A DNA stretch of 64,000 nt from Mycolicibacterium pulveris (GTDB lineage Bacteria > Actinomycetota > Actinomycetes > Mycobacteriales > Mycobacteriaceae): assembly GCF_010725725.1 (NCBI RefSeq), contig NZ_AP022599.1, positions 5,332,001 to 5,396,000 on the forward strand, in the 5' to 3' direction. Made by a program: the position numbers and the translations under genes. Under the pieces are notes generated by a model. It was not told the origin of the DNA, did not search any database, and saw only the letters and a program-made list of their open reading frames with translations. Positions 6,934-14,887 of the stretch are shown here, in pieces (position 1 is the stretch's first letter; each line of letters starts with the position of its first letter).

Positions 6934-8022
6934 GTGCGGTCGCGATTCGCCGTGATGTCGGTTGCCCTGCTGGTCACAGGAATGGTCGCGGCGTGCGCCG
7001 ACGGCACCGGCGACAGCGCCGAGCGCACCGAACCGGGTCCGGTGACCGGCGCCGTGTGGGTCGCCAACGAGGGTGCGGACAGCCTCAGCGTCGTCGATGC
7101 GGCCACCGACGCCGTCGTCAGCACGCTCGAAGGCATCCAGTCGCCGCACAACGTCCAGTTGGGTTCCGATGGCGACATCGCCTACGCGGTGAGCGGCAGC
7201 ACCAACAGGGTCGTCGCCATCGACACCGCCACGTACGCGGTCCACGCGTTCGCCGACACCGGGCCGGGCCCCGCGCATGTGATCGAGGCGCCCAACGGCA
7301 AGGTGTATGTCACCAACGCCGCAGACGGCACGGTATCGGTCTATCAGGCCGCGGCGTTGACGCCGGTCACCACTATTGACCTCGGCGGCATGCCGCACGG
7401 GCTGCGGGCGGCGGCAGACGGTTCGGTGATCGTGGTGGCCAACACCATGGCAGGCAGGCTCGATCTGATCGATCCGGCGACCGACGCGCTGCGGGGGTCC
7501 GTGCCGGTGGGCACCGAACCGCTACAGGTCGCGGTCACCGCCGACGGCAAGTACGCCTACAGCAGTGTCAGCGAGCCCCCGACGGTGGTCAAGGTCGACC
7601 TCGCGACGCAAAAGGTCGTGGGCAGCACCGACGTTCCCAGCCCGCCGGTGCAGCTGTATCTGACGCCGGACGAGGGCTTGGTGGTGAGCGCCAACCAGGG
7701 AACCGCCGAAGCGCCCGGCCGTACCGTGTCGGTGATCGACACCGAGGCGATGACGCCGCGGGGCACGGTCGACGCGGGATCCGGGCCGCACGGCGTGGTG
7801 ATCGACGACTCGGCGACGCGGGCGTGGGTGACCAACACCTTTGATGACACGGTGTCGGCGATCGACCTGGATGAGCTGTCGGTGCCGGCCACCATCGCGG
7901 TCGGCCATGAACCCAACGGGATCAGCTATTCGCCCCGACCGCCCGCCGCGGACGCCCCCGTCACCACGACGTTGAATCTGCCCGCGCCGGAACACCAGTC
8001 AGCACACGGGCACGGCCACTAG
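6934..8022 (+). CDS. YVTN-type beta-propeller lipoprotein with His-rich tail
   Basis: A 362-residue exported protein. The GTG at 6934 follows a strong AGGAGGAG. The signal peptide ends in MVAAC (Cys21), a lipobox. The rest is a series of about seven blades with repeated V-V-(D)-(T/P)-A-T and P-(H/N)-G elements, as in YVTN/NHL propellers. The C-terminus ends HQSAHGHGH, a plausible metal-binding tail. It is divergent from the NirK-like gene, with 86 bases between their starts, and its stop overlaps the stop of the flavoprotein gene on the other strand by 3 bases. A role in copper or heme delivery, or as a periplasmic electron-transfer partner, is possible but unproven. Confidence 0.78.
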   Translation: MRSRFAVMSVALLVTGMVAACADGTGDSAERTEPGPVTGAVWVANEGADSLSVVDAATDAVVSTLEGIQSPHNVQLGSDGDIAYAVSGSTNRVVAIDTATYAVHAFADTGPGPAHVIEAPNGKVYVTNAADGTVSVYQAAALTPVTTIDLGGMPHGLRAAADGSVIVVANTMAGRLDLIDPATDALRGSVPVGTEPLQVAVTADGKYAYSSVSEPPTVVKVDLATQKVVGSTDVPSPPVQLYLTPDEGLVVSANQGTAEAPGRTVSVIDTEAMTPRGTVDAGSGPHGVVIDDSATRAWVTNTFDDTVSAIDLDELSVPATIAVGHEPNGISYSPRPPAADAPVTTTLNLPAPEHQSAHGHGH

Positions 8023-10700
8023 GTCAACGTCAACGCTCGCCGCGCGTATGCGCGCACGTCGGCATCGCTGTCGTCCAACGCCTGGCCGAGCGCGTCGCGC
8101 GCGGCCGGTTCTGAGGCCGCCCAGCGCGTCAAGCTCAGCACGGCGGCCTTGCGCACATCGAGGTGCCGGTCGGCCAGTGCCCGCGACAGCGCGGGCACGG
8201 CGACCGTGGGCGACGCACCCGCAAGCGCCTTGGCCGCGCCCTCCCGCACCTGCCAGGCGGGCTCCTCCAGCGCGAGTCGCACTTCGGGGACATCGCCGTC
8301 GCCGCATCCGATGGCTCCCAACGCCGCCAGCGCAGCCGCCCGGACCAGCGGGTCGGCGTCGGCGAGAAGCGCACGAACGGTGTCGGCGCCGGCGCGCAGG
8401 GTCGCCAGGCCCTTTGCGACCGCAATGCGGACCTCACGGTTGTCATCGAGGGCGGCGGCGCTCACACCGTCCACATCGTCGACGGATACCACAGCGCGTA
8501 CCGCTTCGATGCGGACCCGGTGATCGGTGTCATGAAGCGCCTGCCGGTACTGGCCGGGCTCGCCAGCCCTGCAGGACGCGAGCACATGCACCGCTGCCGC
8601 GCGCACGACAGCATCGGGCGAATGCAGGTGCTTGGCAAGGTTTTCCGGATCAGGAAGGACCTCGACGAGCTCACGCACCCCGGCGGCCGCCTCCCGTCGC
8701 ACCTCGGGGTCGTCGTCGCCGAGCGCGGTCAGCAGAGCCGACCCGTAACCCTCGGGCAGATGCTCGGTCAGGGTGCGCACGGCCGTTCGCCGGACGTCGC
8801 GATCCGGGTCGGTCAAGAAGTCGAGCAGGTCCCTCAGCATCGGAGACTCCAACGCCAGCACCGCGGCGATCCGCGGCGACGGCGGCGGCCCCGACGGTGC
8901 ACGCACCCTGGTGGTGGTCGCGGCGGGCGCGCGCCCCACAGCGGAAAGCGGCTGCTGCACGGCTGCCGCGGCCGCGTCCGACGGAAGGTGCTCGAACTCG
9001 GGCACCGGGACGAAATACGGCGCTACCGGCCGCTTCAGAAACGCCATCGTGCCGTCGGCCGCCTTGTGCAGGTTGAGGTGGTAGCGCCAGTTCTGGTCGT
9101 CGCGCTCGGGAAGATCCGCCCGGTCGTGATAGAGCCCCCACCTCGACTCGGTGCGGGTCAGTGACGAACGGGCGGCCATCTCGGCGCAGTCCCTGATGAA
9201 CGACACCTCGACTGCGCGCATCAGCTCGTGTGGTGTCCGCGCGCCCATCTCCGCGATCTCGGAGCGCATCCTCTCGAACGTCGCGACGGCGATCGACAAC
9301 TTCGACGCCGTCTTCGGCGGTGCCACATAATCGTTGACGAAGCGGCGCAGCTTGTATTCGACCTGGGGCTGCGGCGGGCCGTCGGGATGGCGCAGCGGAC
9401 GGTAGATGAGCTCGTGGGCCTCGTTGAGCTGATCGCGCGGCAGGGTCCGCGGTGCGGTCACACCGGGCAGCGTCGACGCCGCGTGCGCGCCGGCGAGATC
9501 GCCGTAGACGAACGCGCCGATCATGTAGTTGTGCGGCACGCAGGCCAGGTCACCGGCCGCGTAAAGTCCCGGCACGGTGGTGCGGGCGTGTTCGTCGACC
9601 CAAACCCCGGAGGCCGAATGCCCGCTGCACAGCCCGATCTCGGAGATGTGCATCTCCACGTCGTGGGTGCGATAGTCGTGTCCGCGGTTGGCGTGAAACG
9701 TCCCGCGAGTGGGCCGTTCGGTGGTGTGCAGGATGTTCTCCAATGCCGTCACCGTCTCGTCGGGCAGGTGCGAGACCTTCAGATAGATTGGCCCGCGGGC
9801 GGATTCGATCTCCCGCTTCACCTCGGCCATCATCTGGCCCGACCAGTAGTCTGAGTCGACGAACCGCTCCCCCAACGCGTTCACTTGGTAGCCGCCGAAC
9901 GGGTTGGCCACGTACGCGCAAGCAGGCCCGTTGTAGTCCTTGATCAACGGGTTCACCTGGAAGCACTCGATGCCGGACAGTTCGGCGCCGGCGTAATAGG
10001 CCATCGAGTATCCGTCGCCGGCGTTGGTCGGGTTCTCGTACGTGCCGTACAGATAGCCCGAGGCGGGCAGGCCCAGTCGCCCGCACGCTCCGGTGGCCAG
10101 GATCACCGCCTTGGCCGCGACGGCGACGAATTCCCCGGTGCGAGTGTTGAACGCGGCGGCGCCGACGGCCCTCCCGGTGTCGGCGGTGAGCACCCGCACC
10201 GGCATCAACCGGTTCTCGATGCGGATCCTCTCACGCATCGAGCGTTGCCGCAGCACGCGGTAGAGGGCCTTCTTGACGTCCTTGCCCTCCGGCATCGGCA
10301 GCACGTACGAACCCGACCGGTGGACCCGGCGCACGGCGTATTCGCCGTGCTCGTCCTTCTCGAACTTGACCCCGTAGCGTTCCAGCCGCTGCACCATCGC
10401 GAAACCACGCGTCGCGGTCTGATACACGGTGCGCTGATTGACGATTCCGTCGTTGGCGCGGGTGATCTCGGCTACGTAGTCCTCGGGGGTGGCTTTGCCG
10501 GGGATGACGGCGTTGTTCACTCCGTCCATTCCCATCGCCAACGCACCGGAATGCCGCACGTGCGCCTTTTCCAGCAGTAACACCTGCGCGCCGTGCTCGG
10601 CGGCGGTGAGCGCAGCCATGGTGCCCGCGGTGCCGCCGCCGATCACCAGCACGTCGCAGTCGAGCCGGATGGTGTCATCGAGGGAAGGTATCTGCATCAT
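8019..10700 (-). CDS. AprA/FrdA-like FAD oxidoreductase fused to C-terminal HEAT repeats
   Basis: An 893-residue protein. Residues 15-30 hold the FAD dinucleotide fold (VLVIGGGTAGTMAA), and the flavoprotein domain runs to about 560. The FAD C-terminal signature TTVPGLYAAGDLACVPHNYM and the NPLIKDYNGP region look closer to adenylylsulfate reductase alpha than to succinate dehydrogenase. After a Pro/Ala-rich linker (about 595-620) come roughly eight HEAT-like units, each containing DxDxxVRxxA-type turns, up to residue 893. The ATG at 10700 overlaps the ATPase stop by 4 bases. The partner is probably the two-cluster ferredoxin at 13777-14004. Reaction unknown: an organosulfur or related oxyanion redox step is my inference from the AprAB resemblance and the Tau/Ssu-type transporter. 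Confidence 0.85.
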   Translation of the reverse strand: MMQIPSLDDTIRLDCDVLVIGGGTAGTMAALTAAEHGAQVLLLEKAHVRHSGALAMGMDGVNNAVIPGKATPEDYVAEITRANDGIVNQRTVYQTATRGFAMVQRLERYGVKFEKDEHGEYAVRRVHRSGSYVLPMPEGKDVKKALYRVLRQRSMRERIRIENRLMPVRVLTADTGRAVGAAAFNTRTGEFVAVAAKAVILATGACGRLGLPASGYLYGTYENPTNAGDGYSMAYYAGAELSGIECFQVNPLIKDYNGPACAYVANPFGGYQVNALGERFVDSDYWSGQMMAEVKREIESARGPIYLKVSHLPDETVTALENILHTTERPTRGTFHANRGHDYRTHDVEMHISEIGLCSGHSASGVWVDEHARTTVPGLYAAGDLACVPHNYMIGAFVYGDLAGAHAASTLPGVTAPRTLPRDQLNEAHELIYRPLRHPDGPPQPQVEYKLRRFVNDYVAPPKTASKLSIAVATFERMRSEIAEMGARTPHELMRAVEVSFIRDCAEMAARSSLTRTESRWGLYHDRADLPERDDQNWRYHLNLHKAADGTMAFLKRPVAPYFVPVPEFEHLPSDAAAAAVQQPLSAVGRAPAATTTRVRAPSGPPPSPRIAAVLALESPMLRDLLDFLTDPDRDVRRTAVRTLTEHLPEGYGSALLTALGDDDPEVRREAAAGVRELVEVLPDPENLAKHLHSPDAVVRAAAVHVLASCRAGEPGQYRQALHDTDHRVRIEAVRAVVSVDDVDGVSAAALDDNREVRIAVAKGLATLRAGADTVRALLADADPLVRAAALAALGAIGCGDGDVPEVRLALEEPAWQVREGAAKALAGASPTVAVPALSRALADRHLDVRKAAVLSLTRWAASEPAARDALGQALDDSDADVRAYARRALTLT

Positions 10701-11455
10701 GAGTTGTTCAGGGCTGCAATGATTTCTGTGCGTAAAGCACCGCGGTCCACGGTCGTGGAGCGCGGCTCGGCCACCTCGAGCAGAGCGCGCAACGGCTGGC
10801 CGACCCGACCGAGCACCGCCACCCGGTCGCCGAGGATCAACGCCTCGTCGACGTCGTGGGTGACGAACACGATGGTCGTCGGGTGGGCGCACCAGGTGTC
10901 GATCAGCAGGCGCTGCATGGCGGCCCGCGTCTGGGTGTCCAACGCGGCGAACGGTTCGTCCATCATCACCGCGCGCGGCGCGCCGGCAAGCCCCCGCGCC
11001 AGCTGCACCCGTTGGCGCATTCCGCCCGACAGGCTCTTGGGCAGGTAGTCCGCGTATCCACTCAGCCCGACCTCGTCGATCCAGCGTTCGGCGCGCTCAC
11101 GTCGGCCTCCACGGGGTGTCCCGCGCAGTGCGAGCGCCAATTCGATGTTGGATCGCACCGATCGCCACGGCAACAGCGCGCTGTCCTGGAACACCATTCC
11201 GCGGTCGCGCGAGGTGGTGGTGACCTCGGCCCCGTCGGCGAGCACCCGGCCGGCGGCGGGTGCCAGCAGACCGGCCAGGGCACGCAGCACGGTGGACTTG
11301 CCGCACCCGGACGGCCCGGTCAGCACCAGGATTTCGCCCGGCTGGACGGTCAGGCGTAAGCCGTCGACGACCGGCACACCGGTGTAGGACAACCGCACGT
11401 CGTCGAGTTCGAGCCGCATACCTTGCACCGAAGTGGGCGCTGCCGTGGCGGTCAT
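10697..11455 (-). CDS. ABC transporter ATPase, nitrate/sulfonate/taurine (TauB/SsuB) type
   Basis: A 252-residue nucleotide-binding subunit. Walker A is GPSGCGKST, the signature is LSGGMRQRVQLARGL, and Walker B is AVMMDEPFAALD, followed by the switch His in VFVTHDVDEA. The Q-loop reads VFQDSALLPW, typical of the TauB/SsuB/NrtD group. It powers import through the adjacent permease. The ATG at 11455 overlaps the permease stop by 4 bases and its own stop overlaps the flavoprotein start by 4 bases, so the three are translationally coupled. Confidence 0.93.
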   Translation of the reverse strand: MTATAAPTSVQGMRLELDDVRLSYTGVPVVDGLRLTVQPGEILVLTGPSGCGKSTVLRALAGLLAPAAGRVLADGAEVTTTSRDRGMVFQDSALLPWRSVRSNIELALALRGTPRGGRRERAERWIDEVGLSGYADYLPKSLSGGMRQRVQLARGLAGAPRAVMMDEPFAALDTQTRAAMQRLLIDTWCAHPTTIVFVTHDVDEALILGDRVAVLGRVGQPLRALLEVAEPRSTTVDRGALRTEIIAALNNS

Positions 11456-12339
11456 CGCCCGTTCTCCTCGCCGCGCGGCAACCAGCGGGTAGCGCGTCGC
11501 CCGATGAGTTCGACCGCGGCCGCGGTGGCGAAACCGAGCACGCCGATCGTGATGATGCCGACGAACACGTCGGCGTAGTTCAGCACGGTGTACGCCTGCC
11601 AGGTGCGGTACCCGACACCGAGCTGGCCCGAGATCATCTCCGCCGAGATCACACAGATCCAGGCCACTCCCATGCCGACCGAGAGCCCGCCGAAGAGCCC
11701 CGGCAGGATGCCCGGCAACACCACGCGGCCCAACACGTCCCACCGGTTTCCGCCCAGTGTGCGCACCGAGTCCTCCCATATCGTCGGCAACGCGCGAACG
11801 GCGTGGCGGGTGCTGACCATGATCGGGAAATATGCCGCCAGGAACGTGATGAACACGATCCCGGCTTCATCGGTGGGAAACAACAGGATGGCCACCGGAA
11901 CCATCGCGATCGCCGGGATCGGGCGCGCCAGTTCGGTCAACGGGCCGAACACATCGGAGAACACCTTGGAGCGGCCCAGCATGATGCCGGTGACGACACC
12001 GACGGCCGCTGCCAGTCCGAACCCGGTCAGGATGCGGATCAGTGACTGCCCGAGGTCCAGCCAGTACTCCTGGCCGCCGATGCGGTTCACCAACGTCGCG
12101 GCGACTTCGGTGACGGTGGGCAGGGTGTCGAAGCGCAGAAACAACCGAATGTCGTTGGCTGTCAACAGCTGCCATAACCCGACGGCGGCCAGCACCGAGG
12201 TCAGCCGGATCCCCCTGCGGCGCCATTGCGTTGCTCTGCCTTCCCGGCGGACCGTCGGCAGGTCCGATGCCGGCGCCTCGACAACGGTGCCCGGCCGGTC
12301 AGGAACCAGTTGCGCGCTGGTTGCGTCGGCAGTTGTCAC
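11452..12339 (-). CDS. ABC transporter permease, TauC/SsuC type
   Basis: A 295-residue inner-membrane subunit with about six helices after a 45-residue cytoplasmic N-terminus. The EAA loop that contacts the ATPase is visible near residue 195 (DSVRTLGGNRWDVLGRVVLP). This architecture belongs to the BPD_transp_1 group used for nitrate, sulfonate, taurine and related small organic anions. It overlaps the binding-protein stop and the ATPase start by 4 bases each. The substrate cannot be told from the permease. Confidence 0.92.
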   Translation of the reverse strand: MTTADATSAQLVPDRPGTVVEAPASDLPTVRREGRATQWRRRGIRLTSVLAAVGLWQLLTANDIRLFLRFDTLPTVTEVAATLVNRIGGQEYWLDLGQSLIRILTGFGLAAAVGVVTGIMLGRSKVFSDVFGPLTELARPIPAIAMVPVAILLFPTDEAGIVFITFLAAYFPIMVSTRHAVRALPTIWEDSVRTLGGNRWDVLGRVVLPGILPGLFGGLSVGMGVAWICVISAEMISGQLGVGYRTWQAYTVLNYADVFVGIITIGVLGFATAAAVELIGRRATRWLPRGEENGR

Positions 12340-13766
12340 GCCGCGCCCTCCAGTGCCCGCTGGTAGTCGACGGCGGCCGTACCCGGATGGGCGTCGATGA
12401 ACCGCTGGGCGCCCGCCGGGGTGGCGAAGGGCAGGAAGGTCTGGCCGTCACGCACCCAGATGGCCTTGTCCGCGAACCACCGGGTGCCGAACTCGGTGTC
12501 GGCGACGTAGGCCGCGCGCACGGTCGCACCGCGTGCGGTGGCCTCGCGGACCGCCTTCAGAAGGCAGGTCGGGTTGGCGGCCGGCTGGGTGGTGTCGGCA
12601 CCGTCCAGCCACAACTCGCCGGCCTGGGCCGGGTCGGCCACCGGGGCGTCGCAGACCGGGTCGGCGCCGCTGATCACCGACGGGTTCGCGGTCGATGACA
12701 CCGCCAGGTCGTAGTCGCGGCCGCGCTCCTGGAACGCGTTGCGAAGCGGCGCGTCCTCGACGAAGCCTGCGACGTCGAGCTCGGCGAAGTCGCCGATCGA
12801 CTTGAGATAGGGCACATCGCCTTCGAGCGCTTCCACCAGCGACGGCTTGAGCGTGGTGTCGAACGATGTGCCGCCGGGGCCGTTGTAGAGGTACACCACC
12901 TCCTGCGGCAGGCCGCTGGCCTCGGCGACGATGCGCGCGGCCGCCAACGGTTCGGAGTTCAGGTAGTCCGTGGCGTCCAGTTGGGCTTGCAGAAACGCGT
13001 CGAGCACCTCGGGATGCTCGGCGGCGTACGCCCGGCGGACCACCACTCCGTGCAACGTCGGGTAGTTCAGTTCTGCCCCGTCGTACAGCAGCTTCGCCTT
13101 GTCCTGGTACACCAGCAGTCCGGGCCACGCGACGAACTGGGAAAGGGCCTGTACCTGGCCGGATTCCAGCGCGGACGCACCAACCTGGGGCTGCTGATTG
13201 AGCACCTCGACACCGGTGTTCGGGTCGATGCCCGCCTGCGAGAGCGCCCGTACCAGCGTTCCGTGGCCGGCCGAGCCGACGCTGGCTGAGATCTTCTGCC
13301 CGTCGAGGTCGGCCAGCGTCTGCGCCGGCGAACCAGGGGCCACCACAACCATGTTCAACGCACCCTTGGGGTGATACCCGGTGACCGCCACGATCTCGGT
13401 TCGGGCGCGTTCGTTGGACTGGGTCCGAGAGCCGTTGATGAGCATCGGGTAGTCGCCCATCGAACCGATGTCGATCTTCCCGGCCACCATCTGCGCGGTG
13501 ATGGGCGCCCCGGTGTCGTAATCCTGCCATGTCACCTTGTACCGGGTCCCGGTGCGTGAGGTGATATCGGCGAGCCGCCGTTCCAGATAGCCCTGCGCAC
13601 GCAGCAGAGTGCCTGCGGTGACGGTGTTGATGGTCTTGGATTGGTAGCCGATGACGACGTCGACGACGTCGCCTGACGAGCTCGATCCGGCGTCGAGCGA
13701 GCAACTCGATGCAACCAAGGTGAGCCCGGCGGCCAGCGCCGCGAGGCGCAGAGACGGTCTGGTCAT
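12336..13766 (-). CDS. Substrate-binding lipoprotein fused to a C-terminal NosL-like domain
   Basis: A 476-residue exported protein. A signal peptide ends at Cys22 (VASSC) for lipid attachment. Residues about 35-365 are a SsuA/TauA-type periplasmic binding protein (for example IDIGSMGDYPMLINGS and LNMVVVAPGSPAQTL). Residues about 372-470 are additional and resemble NosL, the copper(I)-binding accessory protein of nitrous oxide reductase: Cys372, a PTCLLKAV segment with Cys401, then YVADTEFGTRWFADKAIWV and the PFATPAGAQRFIDAHPG block that matches the conserved NosL C-terminus. A plain binding protein of this class is only about 330-350 residues. It may bind a copper-containing or copper-requiring ligand; that is inference. 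Confidence 0.8.
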   Translation of the reverse strand: MTRPSLRLAALAAGLTLVASSCSLDAGSSSSGDVVDVVIGYQSKTINTVTAGTLLRAQGYLERRLADITSRTGTRYKVTWQDYDTGAPITAQMVAGKIDIGSMGDYPMLINGSRTQSNERARTEIVAVTGYHPKGALNMVVVAPGSPAQTLADLDGQKISASVGSAGHGTLVRALSQAGIDPNTGVEVLNQQPQVGASALESGQVQALSQFVAWPGLLVYQDKAKLLYDGAELNYPTLHGVVVRRAYAAEHPEVLDAFLQAQLDATDYLNSEPLAAARIVAEASGLPQEVVYLYNGPGGTSFDTTLKPSLVEALEGDVPYLKSIGDFAELDVAGFVEDAPLRNAFQERGRDYDLAVSSTANPSVISGADPVCDAPVADPAQAGELWLDGADTTQPAANPTCLLKAVREATARGATVRAAYVADTEFGTRWFADKAIWVRDGQTFLPFATPAGAQRFIDAHPGTAAVDYQRALEGAA

Positions 13767-13776
13767 GTGAATGTCC

Positions 13777-14004
13777 TCAACGAATCAGGTACGGCATGTT
13801 GACGGTGACGGCGCCGGTGGGACAGCGGGCTGCGCACGGCCCGCAGTACCAACACTCGTCGACATGCATGTACGCCTTCCCGTTGTCGGGGTTGATCGCC
13901 AGGGAGTCCAGCGGGCAGATGTCCACGCACAGGGTGCAGCCGGTGATGCACAAAGATTCGTCGATCGTCACCGGCACATCGGCACGTTGGTTGACCAGCG
14001 TCAT
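13777..14004 (-). CDS. Two-[4Fe-4S] ferredoxin, AprB-like
   Basis: A 75-residue protein with eight cluster cysteines: Cys19, 23, 26, 30 and Cys51, 54, 57, 61. The second half contains VDECWYCGPCAARCPTGAV, very like the beta subunit of adenylylsulfate reductase. It should carry electrons to or from the flavoprotein encoded four genes downstream. The ATG at 14004 overlaps the GntR stop by 4 bases, and ten bases separate it from the binding-protein start. It has no signal peptide, so the redox chemistry is cytoplasmic. Confidence 0.9.
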   Translation of the reverse strand: MTLVNQRADVPVTIDESLCITGCTLCVDICPLDSLAINPDNGKAYMHVDECWYCGPCAARCPTGAVTVNMPYLIR

Positions 14005-14744
14005 GGGATGCTCCTGATAAGGCTGCCGCGCATGGTGATTCGGTCACCGCGCATGCGGATGTATTCGAGGTCGACGGGCCGGCCGTCGTCGAGGCTGGTG
14101 AGTCGTTCCAACATGAGCAGTGCCGCACCGGTGGGCACCTGAAGTGTCGCCGCCGAATGCGGATCTGCCGAAACAGCTTCCAGCGCCAGGGTGGCCGAAC
14201 CCAGACGCTGACCGGAGACCTGTTCGATGAGCGAGAACACGTCGTTGTGCTCCAGCGGATGCCGCAACACTTCGGCGCCGATGTCGGGGGCCAGATAGGT
14301 CTGATCCAGCGACAGCGGCAGATCGCTCACGTAGCGCAGTCGTTCGACGAACACGACGCTCTCTCCAGGCTGCAATCGCAGACGGCGGGCCACCGCAGGC
14401 GGTGCGGCCAGGTGTGCGACCGTGCGAACCTGGTTGTGGACTTCGCCGTAATCCTTGAACGTCTCCTGCAGCCCGACGAGCCGGTCGAGTCCGTGGTCAT
14501 ACTTGCGGACCGCGACATGGGTGCCCACTTTGGGTCCACGCTCGATCAGCCCCTCGTTCTTGAGCGTGGCCAGCGCCTCACGAATCGTGTTGCGGGACAC
14601 GAAGAACTCCGCGGCCAGATCTTGTTCGCCGGGCAGTCCTCCTGCGTAACCGCCCGCGTGGATCTGGTGTCGCAGAACGTCGGCGACCTGGCGGGCCCGG
14701 TCCGCGCGAGGCCGCCGGATCGGCGTCGGCTCGGATTGGGGCAT
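14001..14744 (-). CDS. GntR-family regulator, HutC/UTRA subfamily
   Basis: A 247-residue transcription factor. The winged helix (about 15-80) includes LPGEQDLAAEFFVSRNTIRE and a GLIERGPKVGTHV wing. The C-terminal part (about 95-245) is a UTRA ligand-binding domain with typical VVFVERLRYVSDLPLSLDQ. It is the first gene of the ABC/ferredoxin/flavoprotein operon and overlaps the ferredoxin by 4 bases, so it very likely senses the imported compound or its product and controls its own operon. A short palindrome, AGTGCACT at 14757-14764, lies 12 bases before the start and could be part of the operator. Confidence 0.9.
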   Translation of the reverse strand: MPQSEPTPIRRPRADRARQVADVLRHQIHAGGYAGGLPGEQDLAAEFFVSRNTIREALATLKNEGLIERGPKVGTHVAVRKYDHGLDRLVGLQETFKDYGEVHNQVRTVAHLAAPPAVARRLRLQPGESVVFVERLRYVSDLPLSLDQTYLAPDIGAEVLRHPLEHNDVFSLIEQVSGQRLGSATLALEAVSADPHSAATLQVPTGAALLMLERLTSLDDGRPVDLEYIRMRGDRITMRGSLIRSIP

Positions 14745-14851
14745 GCGGACACGGTAAGTGCACTGGTGACCGTCTCGCAGCGCGCGCAGGTGCCGGTCGG
14801 GCTAGGTTAACTCATTGCGCCGCTGCGATTTCGCCGCGACCAGGTCAAAGG

Positions 14852-14887
14852 TGCGGCATCGAGCCGCATTACGCCACCTACGGTGGC
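14852..14887. terminator. Two adjacent small hairpins between nusB and the GntR operon
   Basis: Two perfect 6-bp inverted repeats lie side by side: TGCGGC/GCCGCA with a 5-base loop (14852-14868) and GCCACC/GGTGGC with a 3-base loop (14873-14887). They fall after the nusB stop and before the GntR promoter region. No U-tract follows, which is common for mycobacterial terminators. The remaining bases of this 206-base gap hold nothing else I can name. Confidence 0.4.

Follow-up and report, generated by a model that had tools for sequence, protein, structure and literature searches.

Which compound is taken up and converted by an operon that joins a Tau/Ssu-type importer to an AprAB-like redox pair, HEAT repeats and a NosL-like domain? 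The question is raised by six genes on the minus strand (14744-8019) of a window of 64,000 nucleotides from Mycolicibacterium pulveris (contig NZ_AP022599.1, positions 5,332,001 to 5,396,000; the host genome is one contig of 5.48 Mb). All positions below are those of the window. A preliminary description, made from the sequence alone, had proposed the uptake and redox conversion of an organosulfur or copper-linked anion. In our analysis, the importer, the AprAB-like pair, the HEAT repeats, the NosL-like part and an organosulfur compound as the likely substrate class were supported, but the copper link was not. The answer that we favour, and hold to be moderately probable, is that the six genes form an Asf-type system for sulfonate assimilation, in an actinobacterial variety with a HEAT fusion. 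The genes and their domains are as follows.

14001..14744, minus strand: GntR/UTRA transcription factor, 247 residues, the operon's first gene (Pfam UTRA, E 4.9e-31; GntR, E 1.2e-15)
13777..14004, minus strand: AprB-like 2x[4Fe-4S] ferredoxin, 75 residues, with an invariant Cys-Trp adjoining the second cluster (Pfam 4Fe-4S dicluster)
12336..13766, minus strand: substrate-binding lipoprotein, 476 residues, with an SsuA/TauA-like domain and a NosL-like tail (Pfam NMT1)
13667-12738, minus strand: SsuA/TauA-like domain of the binding lipoprotein, residues ~34-343
12339..12632, minus strand: C-terminal domain of the binding lipoprotein, residues ~379-476, NosL-like but lacking CxM
11452..12339, minus strand: ATP-binding cassette (ABC) permease of the TauC/SsuC/NtrB type, GTG start (Pfam BPD_transp_1, NCBIfam)
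10697..11455, minus strand: ABC ATPase of the TauB/SsuB type (Pfam ABC_tran, NCBIfam)
8019..10700, minus strand: AprA-like flavin adenine dinucleotide (FAD) flavoprotein fused to HEAT repeats, 893 residues (Pfam FAD_binding_2, Succ_DH_flav_C and HEAT; NCBIfam NF010374)
10700-8991, minus strand: AprA-like FAD part of the flavoprotein, residues 1-570
8022..8858, minus strand: HEAT-repeat solenoid of the flavoprotein, residues ~615-893 (Pfam; predicted structure)

A conserved gene set of Asf-type composition

As the preliminary description had stated, four of the junctions are 4-bp overlaps and the fifth, between the ferredoxin and binding-protein genes, is a 10-base gap. We compared the actinobacterial loci of the best 80 of 581 relatives; in 73 of them the full set of six lies in unchanged order with a single orientation, so the arrangement is more than chance; the lack of conservation that had been named as a refutation of the preliminary description is thereby excluded. 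In this count, L056 and L058 were taken as ordered though insertions interrupt the cluster, and L060 fell outside only through an over-long start call. Genes were missing in six loci with contig ends nearby (L012, L024, L029, L043, L044, L087), and L043, where the ferredoxin gene directly precedes the flavoprotein gene, is a real rearrangement. Among the script-called open reading frames within 6 kb, no further conserved operon member was seen in the 45 largest actinobacterial flank clusters, and the largest shared flank family lies downstream on the opposite strand in 27 loci. The flavoprotein was found at E<=1e-100 in 53 of 118 genomes of its own genus (a few being cut or split genes), and 8 of 296 genomes in a phylum-wide draw, the M. 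pulveris genome included, exceeded the PRK08275 cut-off. It thus has the character of an accessory trait, shared by many mycobacteria and relatives of theirs, of patchy distribution yet well preserved in its carriers.

In the genus sample, G322 and G367 carry a flavoprotein gene apparently in two pieces, one with an internal stop codon. Another actinobacterial genome holds a distant AprA-like flavoprotein (L113:1519-3442, 31% identity), immediately followed by a ferredoxin; this flavoprotein scores below the family cut-off and is a possible outgroup.

The Asf systems are defined, in the accessible text of PMC4267179, by a flavoprotein or reductase clustered with a ferredoxin, a binding protein and an ABC transporter, and all of these are present in the operon. 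The asfRABC system of Pseudomonas putida S-313, as far as its accounts are accessible, likewise combines a binding protein, an ABC transporter, a reductase and ferredoxin, and one dedicated regulator. According to the same text, asfA transposon mutants could not use aromatic sulfonates and still used aliphatic ones, asf complements ssu, the pair passes on electrons while the C-S bond is oxygenated, and sulfonates are a major form of soil sulfur. In the accessible parts of the other papers, asfRABC is required in addition to ssu (PMC10441942), AsfA and AsfB of Cupriavidus metallidurans are Rmet_4334/5 and an electron chain is proposed (PMC2864759), and primer names suggest that asfA adjoins asfB (PMC9694294). 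The asfRABC cluster is a genetic precedent for aromatic sulfonates. Moreover, members of the operon family occur in Cupriavidus, Paraburkholderia, Variovorax, Pseudomonas and Rhodococcus, genera that the accessible texts name for asfA.

The two systems are not identical. The asfRABC regulator is of the LysR type, whereas that of the operon is GntR/UTRA; asfA appears to lie beside asfB, and no HEAT part is mentioned in the accessible descriptions. The assignment of the operon to the Asf type thus draws on composition and context, from which, rather than from sequence, we infer the homology of the flavoprotein to AsfA; AsfA was absent from the protein names among the flavoprotein-family matches listed. 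Compared with known systems, the HEAT fusion, the NosL-like domain without CxM and the three-box promoter element described below are new. No description of a HEAT-fused or NosL-tailed form, or of the control site, was found in the literature, with most subscription papers and all supplements outside the search. The accessible literature on Rhodococcus IGTS8 and Gordonia desulfurisation does not mention the operon, and the accessible portions of PMC3506598, PMC4070957, PMC10914941, PMC8305402 and PMC10433963 contain nothing on it.

The importer resembles SsuABC/TauABC in the fold of the binding protein and in the types of permease and ATPase, but a second, NosL-like domain is joined to its binding protein and the operon has no SsuD/TauD. 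If the imported anion were of another kind (nitrate-like, phosphonate, N-heterocycle or pyrimidine), the redox pair would act on something else. This alternative draws on the breadth of the fold family, in which CmpC, NrtA, CmpA, Thi5 and PqqT are also close, and on the nearest curated families of the GntR protein, which are phosphonate and histidine regulators, both below cut-off. However, sulfonate and taurine binders lead among the sequence matches (one of the four leading matches is titled nitrate transport protein, but the same protein is SsuA in other entries), SsuA comes first in the fold comparison, the redox pair is akin to AprAB, and sulfur genes are found among the neighbours of some non-actinobacterial copies. 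We thus consider a non-sulfonate anion unlikely. The binding protein is closest to SsuA, although it did not reach the cut-off of TIGR01728, the aliphatic sulfonate-binding SsuA family (135.1 against 163.5 bits).

A redox pair with an altered substrate site and a HEAT partner

The kinship of the redox pair to AprAB was borne out by its sequence relatives. The nearest solved relatives of the flavoprotein are the alpha subunits of 3'-phosphoadenosine 5'-phosphosulfate (PAPS) and adenosine 5'-phosphosulfate (APS) reductases, and this closeness might suggest an alternative enzyme of sulfate assimilation that reduces APS or PAPS. Nevertheless, the flavoprotein reached the cut-off of NF010374/PRK13800 (1723.5 against 1196 bits) and stayed below those of the APS/PAPS reductase families (TIGR02061, 135 against 641.75 bits; NF005331, 269 against 557 bits). 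We compared the AprA columns in 45 flavoproteins, using Archaeoglobus fulgidus numbering taken from one phmmer alignment. Asn74, Arg265 and Trp234 are active-site residues of APS reductase, Arg265 being catalytic. The Asn74 column was Asn in all 45 flavoproteins; in contrast, Arg265 was replaced by Leu, Gln145 by Val and Trp234 by Tyr, each in 45 of 45, and a longer loop, HRSGSYVLPMPEGKD, lies near the substrate site. Since the Arg265 column is invariably Leu, the protein is no ordinary APS/PAPS reductase; furthermore, an importer for APS or PAPS makes no sense. This alternative is therefore highly improbable.

For APS reductase, the accessible text of PMC10322725 names Gln145 and, as electron relay, Trp42, and gives a flavin-N5 mechanism. 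With Asn74 kept and the other three columns changed, the flavin and electron path of the operon's pair looks AprAB-like, and the substrate site does not. The changed site would fit a different sulfo compound, but the loss of the Arg265 equivalent argues that the APS mechanism is not simply copied. In the ferredoxin, eight Cys and Trp52 were kept by all 24 sequences of the alignment, and we take this Trp to correspond to the relay Trp of AprB. The best Protein Data Bank (PDB) matches of the ferredoxin were polyferredoxins, the beta subunits of APS and PAPS reductases ranking 9th and 10th. AprAB and the PAPS reductase of Methanothermococcus thermolithotrophicus (8a8o) also pair an FAD subunit of the fumarate-reductase family with an 8Fe ferredoxin subunit, in which a Trp is proposed as electron relay, as in the ferredoxin of the operon with its eight Cys and Trp. 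Unlike these enzymes, the operon has the changed substrate pocket, a HEAT domain and a dedicated importer.

The HEAT repeats were confirmed by Pfam. In the predicted structure, the HEAT blocks mostly had a predicted local distance difference test (pLDDT) score of ~95, and the FAD part was poor (pLDDT <50 for, e.g., residues 203-366). A plasmid search returned 51 records, two of them actinobacterial records matching over most of the length and the others matching only over the flavoprotein part; 16 were examined, chosen for spread, of which 15 were non-actinobacterial (proteobacterial and cyanobacterial) and 14 of those annotated. All 15 loci had a HEAT protein in the cluster, that of L097 being found by alignment, and a ferredoxin of 75-81 residues. 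The long NosL-tailed binding protein was present in 12 of the 15 (not in L090, L094 and L096), and DUF971/GBBH-like or Mrp/NBP35 genes were present at 10 of the 14 annotated copies (three examples checked). In the examined proteobacterial and cyanobacterial loci, HEAT is a separate neighbouring gene, and in a tree of the 45 flavoproteins the 21 fused actinobacterial ones were split from the 24 unfused ones with a branch support of 1.0. That HEAT is a separate gene in some and fused in others argues for a joint complex with the flavoprotein; in our reading, the solenoid is the flavoprotein's fixed partner and probably serves as scaffold or docking arm. Ferredoxin-NADP reductase and FdxA genes adjoin one non-actinobacterial copy, which suggests that electrons flow into the flavoprotein system.

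A LysR protein lies beside two cyanobacterial copies (L104:7307-9343 and L089:9673-11673). The two share 26-31% identity with the binding protein of the operon, and that of L104 is fused to an NMT1/SsuA-like domain; such a LysR/NMT1-type fusion is possibly a one-piece sulfonate sensor. On a Nostoc plasmid (L090:11992-24617), genes for HAD hydrolases, a methyltransferase, a GNAT protein and a FosA-like VOC protein stand between the flavoprotein and ferredoxin genes; with metX and a sulfhydrylase gene nearby, this is a richer organosulfur island.

The upstream element and the NosL-like tail

A three-box element spans 14878-14814 on the minus strand, upstream of the GntR gene.

14868..14878, minus strand: box 1, GGTGGCGTAAT (element pattern GGTGGCGYAAT)
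14838..14844, minus strand: middle box, CCTGGTC (element pattern CWGGTC), offset 32 in the window
14814..14821, minus strand: box 3, GGCGCAAT, 54 bp after box 1
14751..14756, minus strand: TACCGT, a -10-like hexamer of TANNNT type, 12 nt ahead of the ATG of GntR

A pair of GGCG[CTG]A boxes spaced by 53 or 54 bp was found in 60 of 75 actinobacterial regions upstream of GntR, and 59 of these 60 had C[AT]GG[TC] at offset 31; the spacers have diverged and the boxes are kept. In 200 shuffles of two-base blocks, paired boxes occurred in a mean of 0.065 and a maximum of 1 of the 75 regions, a control that overstates independence, the regions being related by descent. In the 118 genus genomes, the exact three-box pattern gave 42 matches in 41 genomes, and a backward control pattern gave 9. 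For 36 of these matches, the flavoprotein gene follows on the same strand after 3961-4163 bp, and the element is thus private to the operon in this sample; five others stand elsewhere in operon-bearing genomes and one in an operon-free genome, and these were taken as chance. The exact element thus precedes the operon in 36 of 53 operon-bearing genomes. M. pulveris is among the 17 without it: an additional base precedes the middle box of its element, and the single exact match of its genome is one of the five located elsewhere.

The GntR/UTRA protein is likely the sensor and the natural candidate binder of this predicted control site. The boxes are direct repeats, and a DNA site is therefore preferred over RNA. 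A riboswitch was rejected for the same reason and also because Rfam gave no match to the upstream boxes at E<=1 and RNAalifold, with 13 sequences, gave four pairs, none changed on both sides. A wider regulon was rejected as well, since paired boxes (GGCGYAAT-N30-60-GGCGYAAT) occur only once in the M. pulveris genome. TANNNT hexamers at -12 to -14 gave 40 counts among the 75 regions, for which a script had picked the start codons, and their position suggests that the operon may be transcribed without a leader.

The preliminary description had called the NosL-like domain copper-type. The tail is, as judged from profile matches, weak in the window's copy and solid at family level. The whole binding protein did not match Pfam NosL (PF05573) at E<=0.01; the window's own tail scored 17.3 bits (E 0.0064) and a longer piece of it 16.4 bits, below the gathering cut-off of 24, and the tail gave no NosL match in NCBIfam. 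Across the family, 15 of 17 tails matched Pfam NosL at the reporting limit of E<=5 (best E 3.3e-8), and the Pseudanabaena tail, with 29.4 bits, exceeded the cut-off. A tail profile gave four PDB matches at E<=10, all NosL (7og7 best, E 4.9e-6; the other three ~0.06). The VIA-align fold matches of the binding protein include no NosL, the tail being barely covered by that comparison.

CxM is the copper motif of NosL. The tail shares the fold family of this copper chaperone, but it is fused to a binding protein, and CxM was absent from all 20 tails inspected. A copper- or nitrous oxide (N2O)-related system could draw on the reality of the tail and on the genes for a NirK-like multicopper protein, a CopD-like protein and a YVTN propeller downstream. 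These genes are not conserved with the operon, however: within 12 kb, and with several loci ending sooner, no multicopper gene was found in 80 actinobacterial loci, and a propeller was found in one (32% identity). With CxM missing as well, the copper reading was rejected as very unlikely.

Of these neighbours, the YVTN beta-propeller (6934-8022, plus strand) has an HGHGH tail, its stop overlaps the end of the flavoprotein gene, and it bears a weak resemblance to lactonase-type N2O reductase (93 bits, with the cut-off at 700). The multicopper protein (6847-5471, minus strand) has an extra N-terminal cupredoxin part and resembles copper nitrite reductase below cut-off (155 against 296 bits); CopD-like and SLAC1-type genes follow.

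Which protein breaks the C-S bond

In the Asf-type reading, the lipoprotein would capture a sulfonate, probably aromatic or otherwise outside the range of plain SsuABC/TauABC, and the permease and ATPase would import it. In the cytoplasm, the 8Fe ferredoxin would dock on the flavoprotein as AprB does on AprA and reduce it, and the reduced flavoprotein would drive the release of sulfur as sulfite for assimilation.

The pair may act solely as electron supply for an SsuD-type monooxygenase that cuts the C-S bond, as asfRABC is viewed in the accessible texts of PMC4267179, PMC10441942 and PMC2864759. We regard this as a serious possibility, though short of probable. A close SsuD match (TIGR03565 at E<1e-60; at most 16 candidates scored per genome) was present in 44 of the 53 genus genomes with the operon and in 37 of the 65 without it (Fisher p 0.0028, kinship uncorrected). 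In addition, 4 of the 14 annotated non-actinobacterial copies have oxygenase-like genes in their vicinity, three of the LLM/NtaA type (one 10 kb off) and one for a Rieske protein. However, 9 of the 53 operon-bearing genomes had no close SsuD match among the scored candidates, the M. pulveris genome being one of the nine (best E 1.3e-22 among 16 of 50 candidates scored). Furthermore, there is no constant oxygenase neighbour: none was evident from the first residues of the 45 largest actinobacterial flank clusters, and no oxygenase-like gene lies near the other 10 of the 14 copies. An AprA-like flavoprotein with a bound-type ferredoxin would also be an odd donor of free reduced flavin mononucleotide (FMNH2).

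Alternatively, the flavoprotein itself may be an oxygen-independent sulfo-lyase that cleaves the C-S bond directly and reductively, a tentative proposal that we hold to be doubtful. The reduced FAD, fed by the ferredoxin, would attack the sulfonate sulfur to give a flavin-sulfite adduct, a chemistry as proposed for APS reductase but acting on carbon-bound SO3. If this is true, a family named 'fumarate reductase/succinate dehydrogenase' includes an enzyme that cleaves C-S bonds reductively and depends on neither O2 nor SsuD.

The flavoprotein family spans Actinobacteria, Proteobacteria and Cyanobacteria under this misleading name, with at least 6375 and at least 6469 proteins at E<=1e-30 in two overlapping sets that may include other flavoproteins. 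The mode of action of the Asf pair is left open in the published accounts as far as these are accessible. The constant parts (ferredoxin, HEAT, and mostly the NosL-tailed binding protein and DUF971/Mrp), the altered AprA site, the genomes without a close SsuD match and the private promoter element together make the question of whether the flavoprotein cuts the bond itself directly testable.
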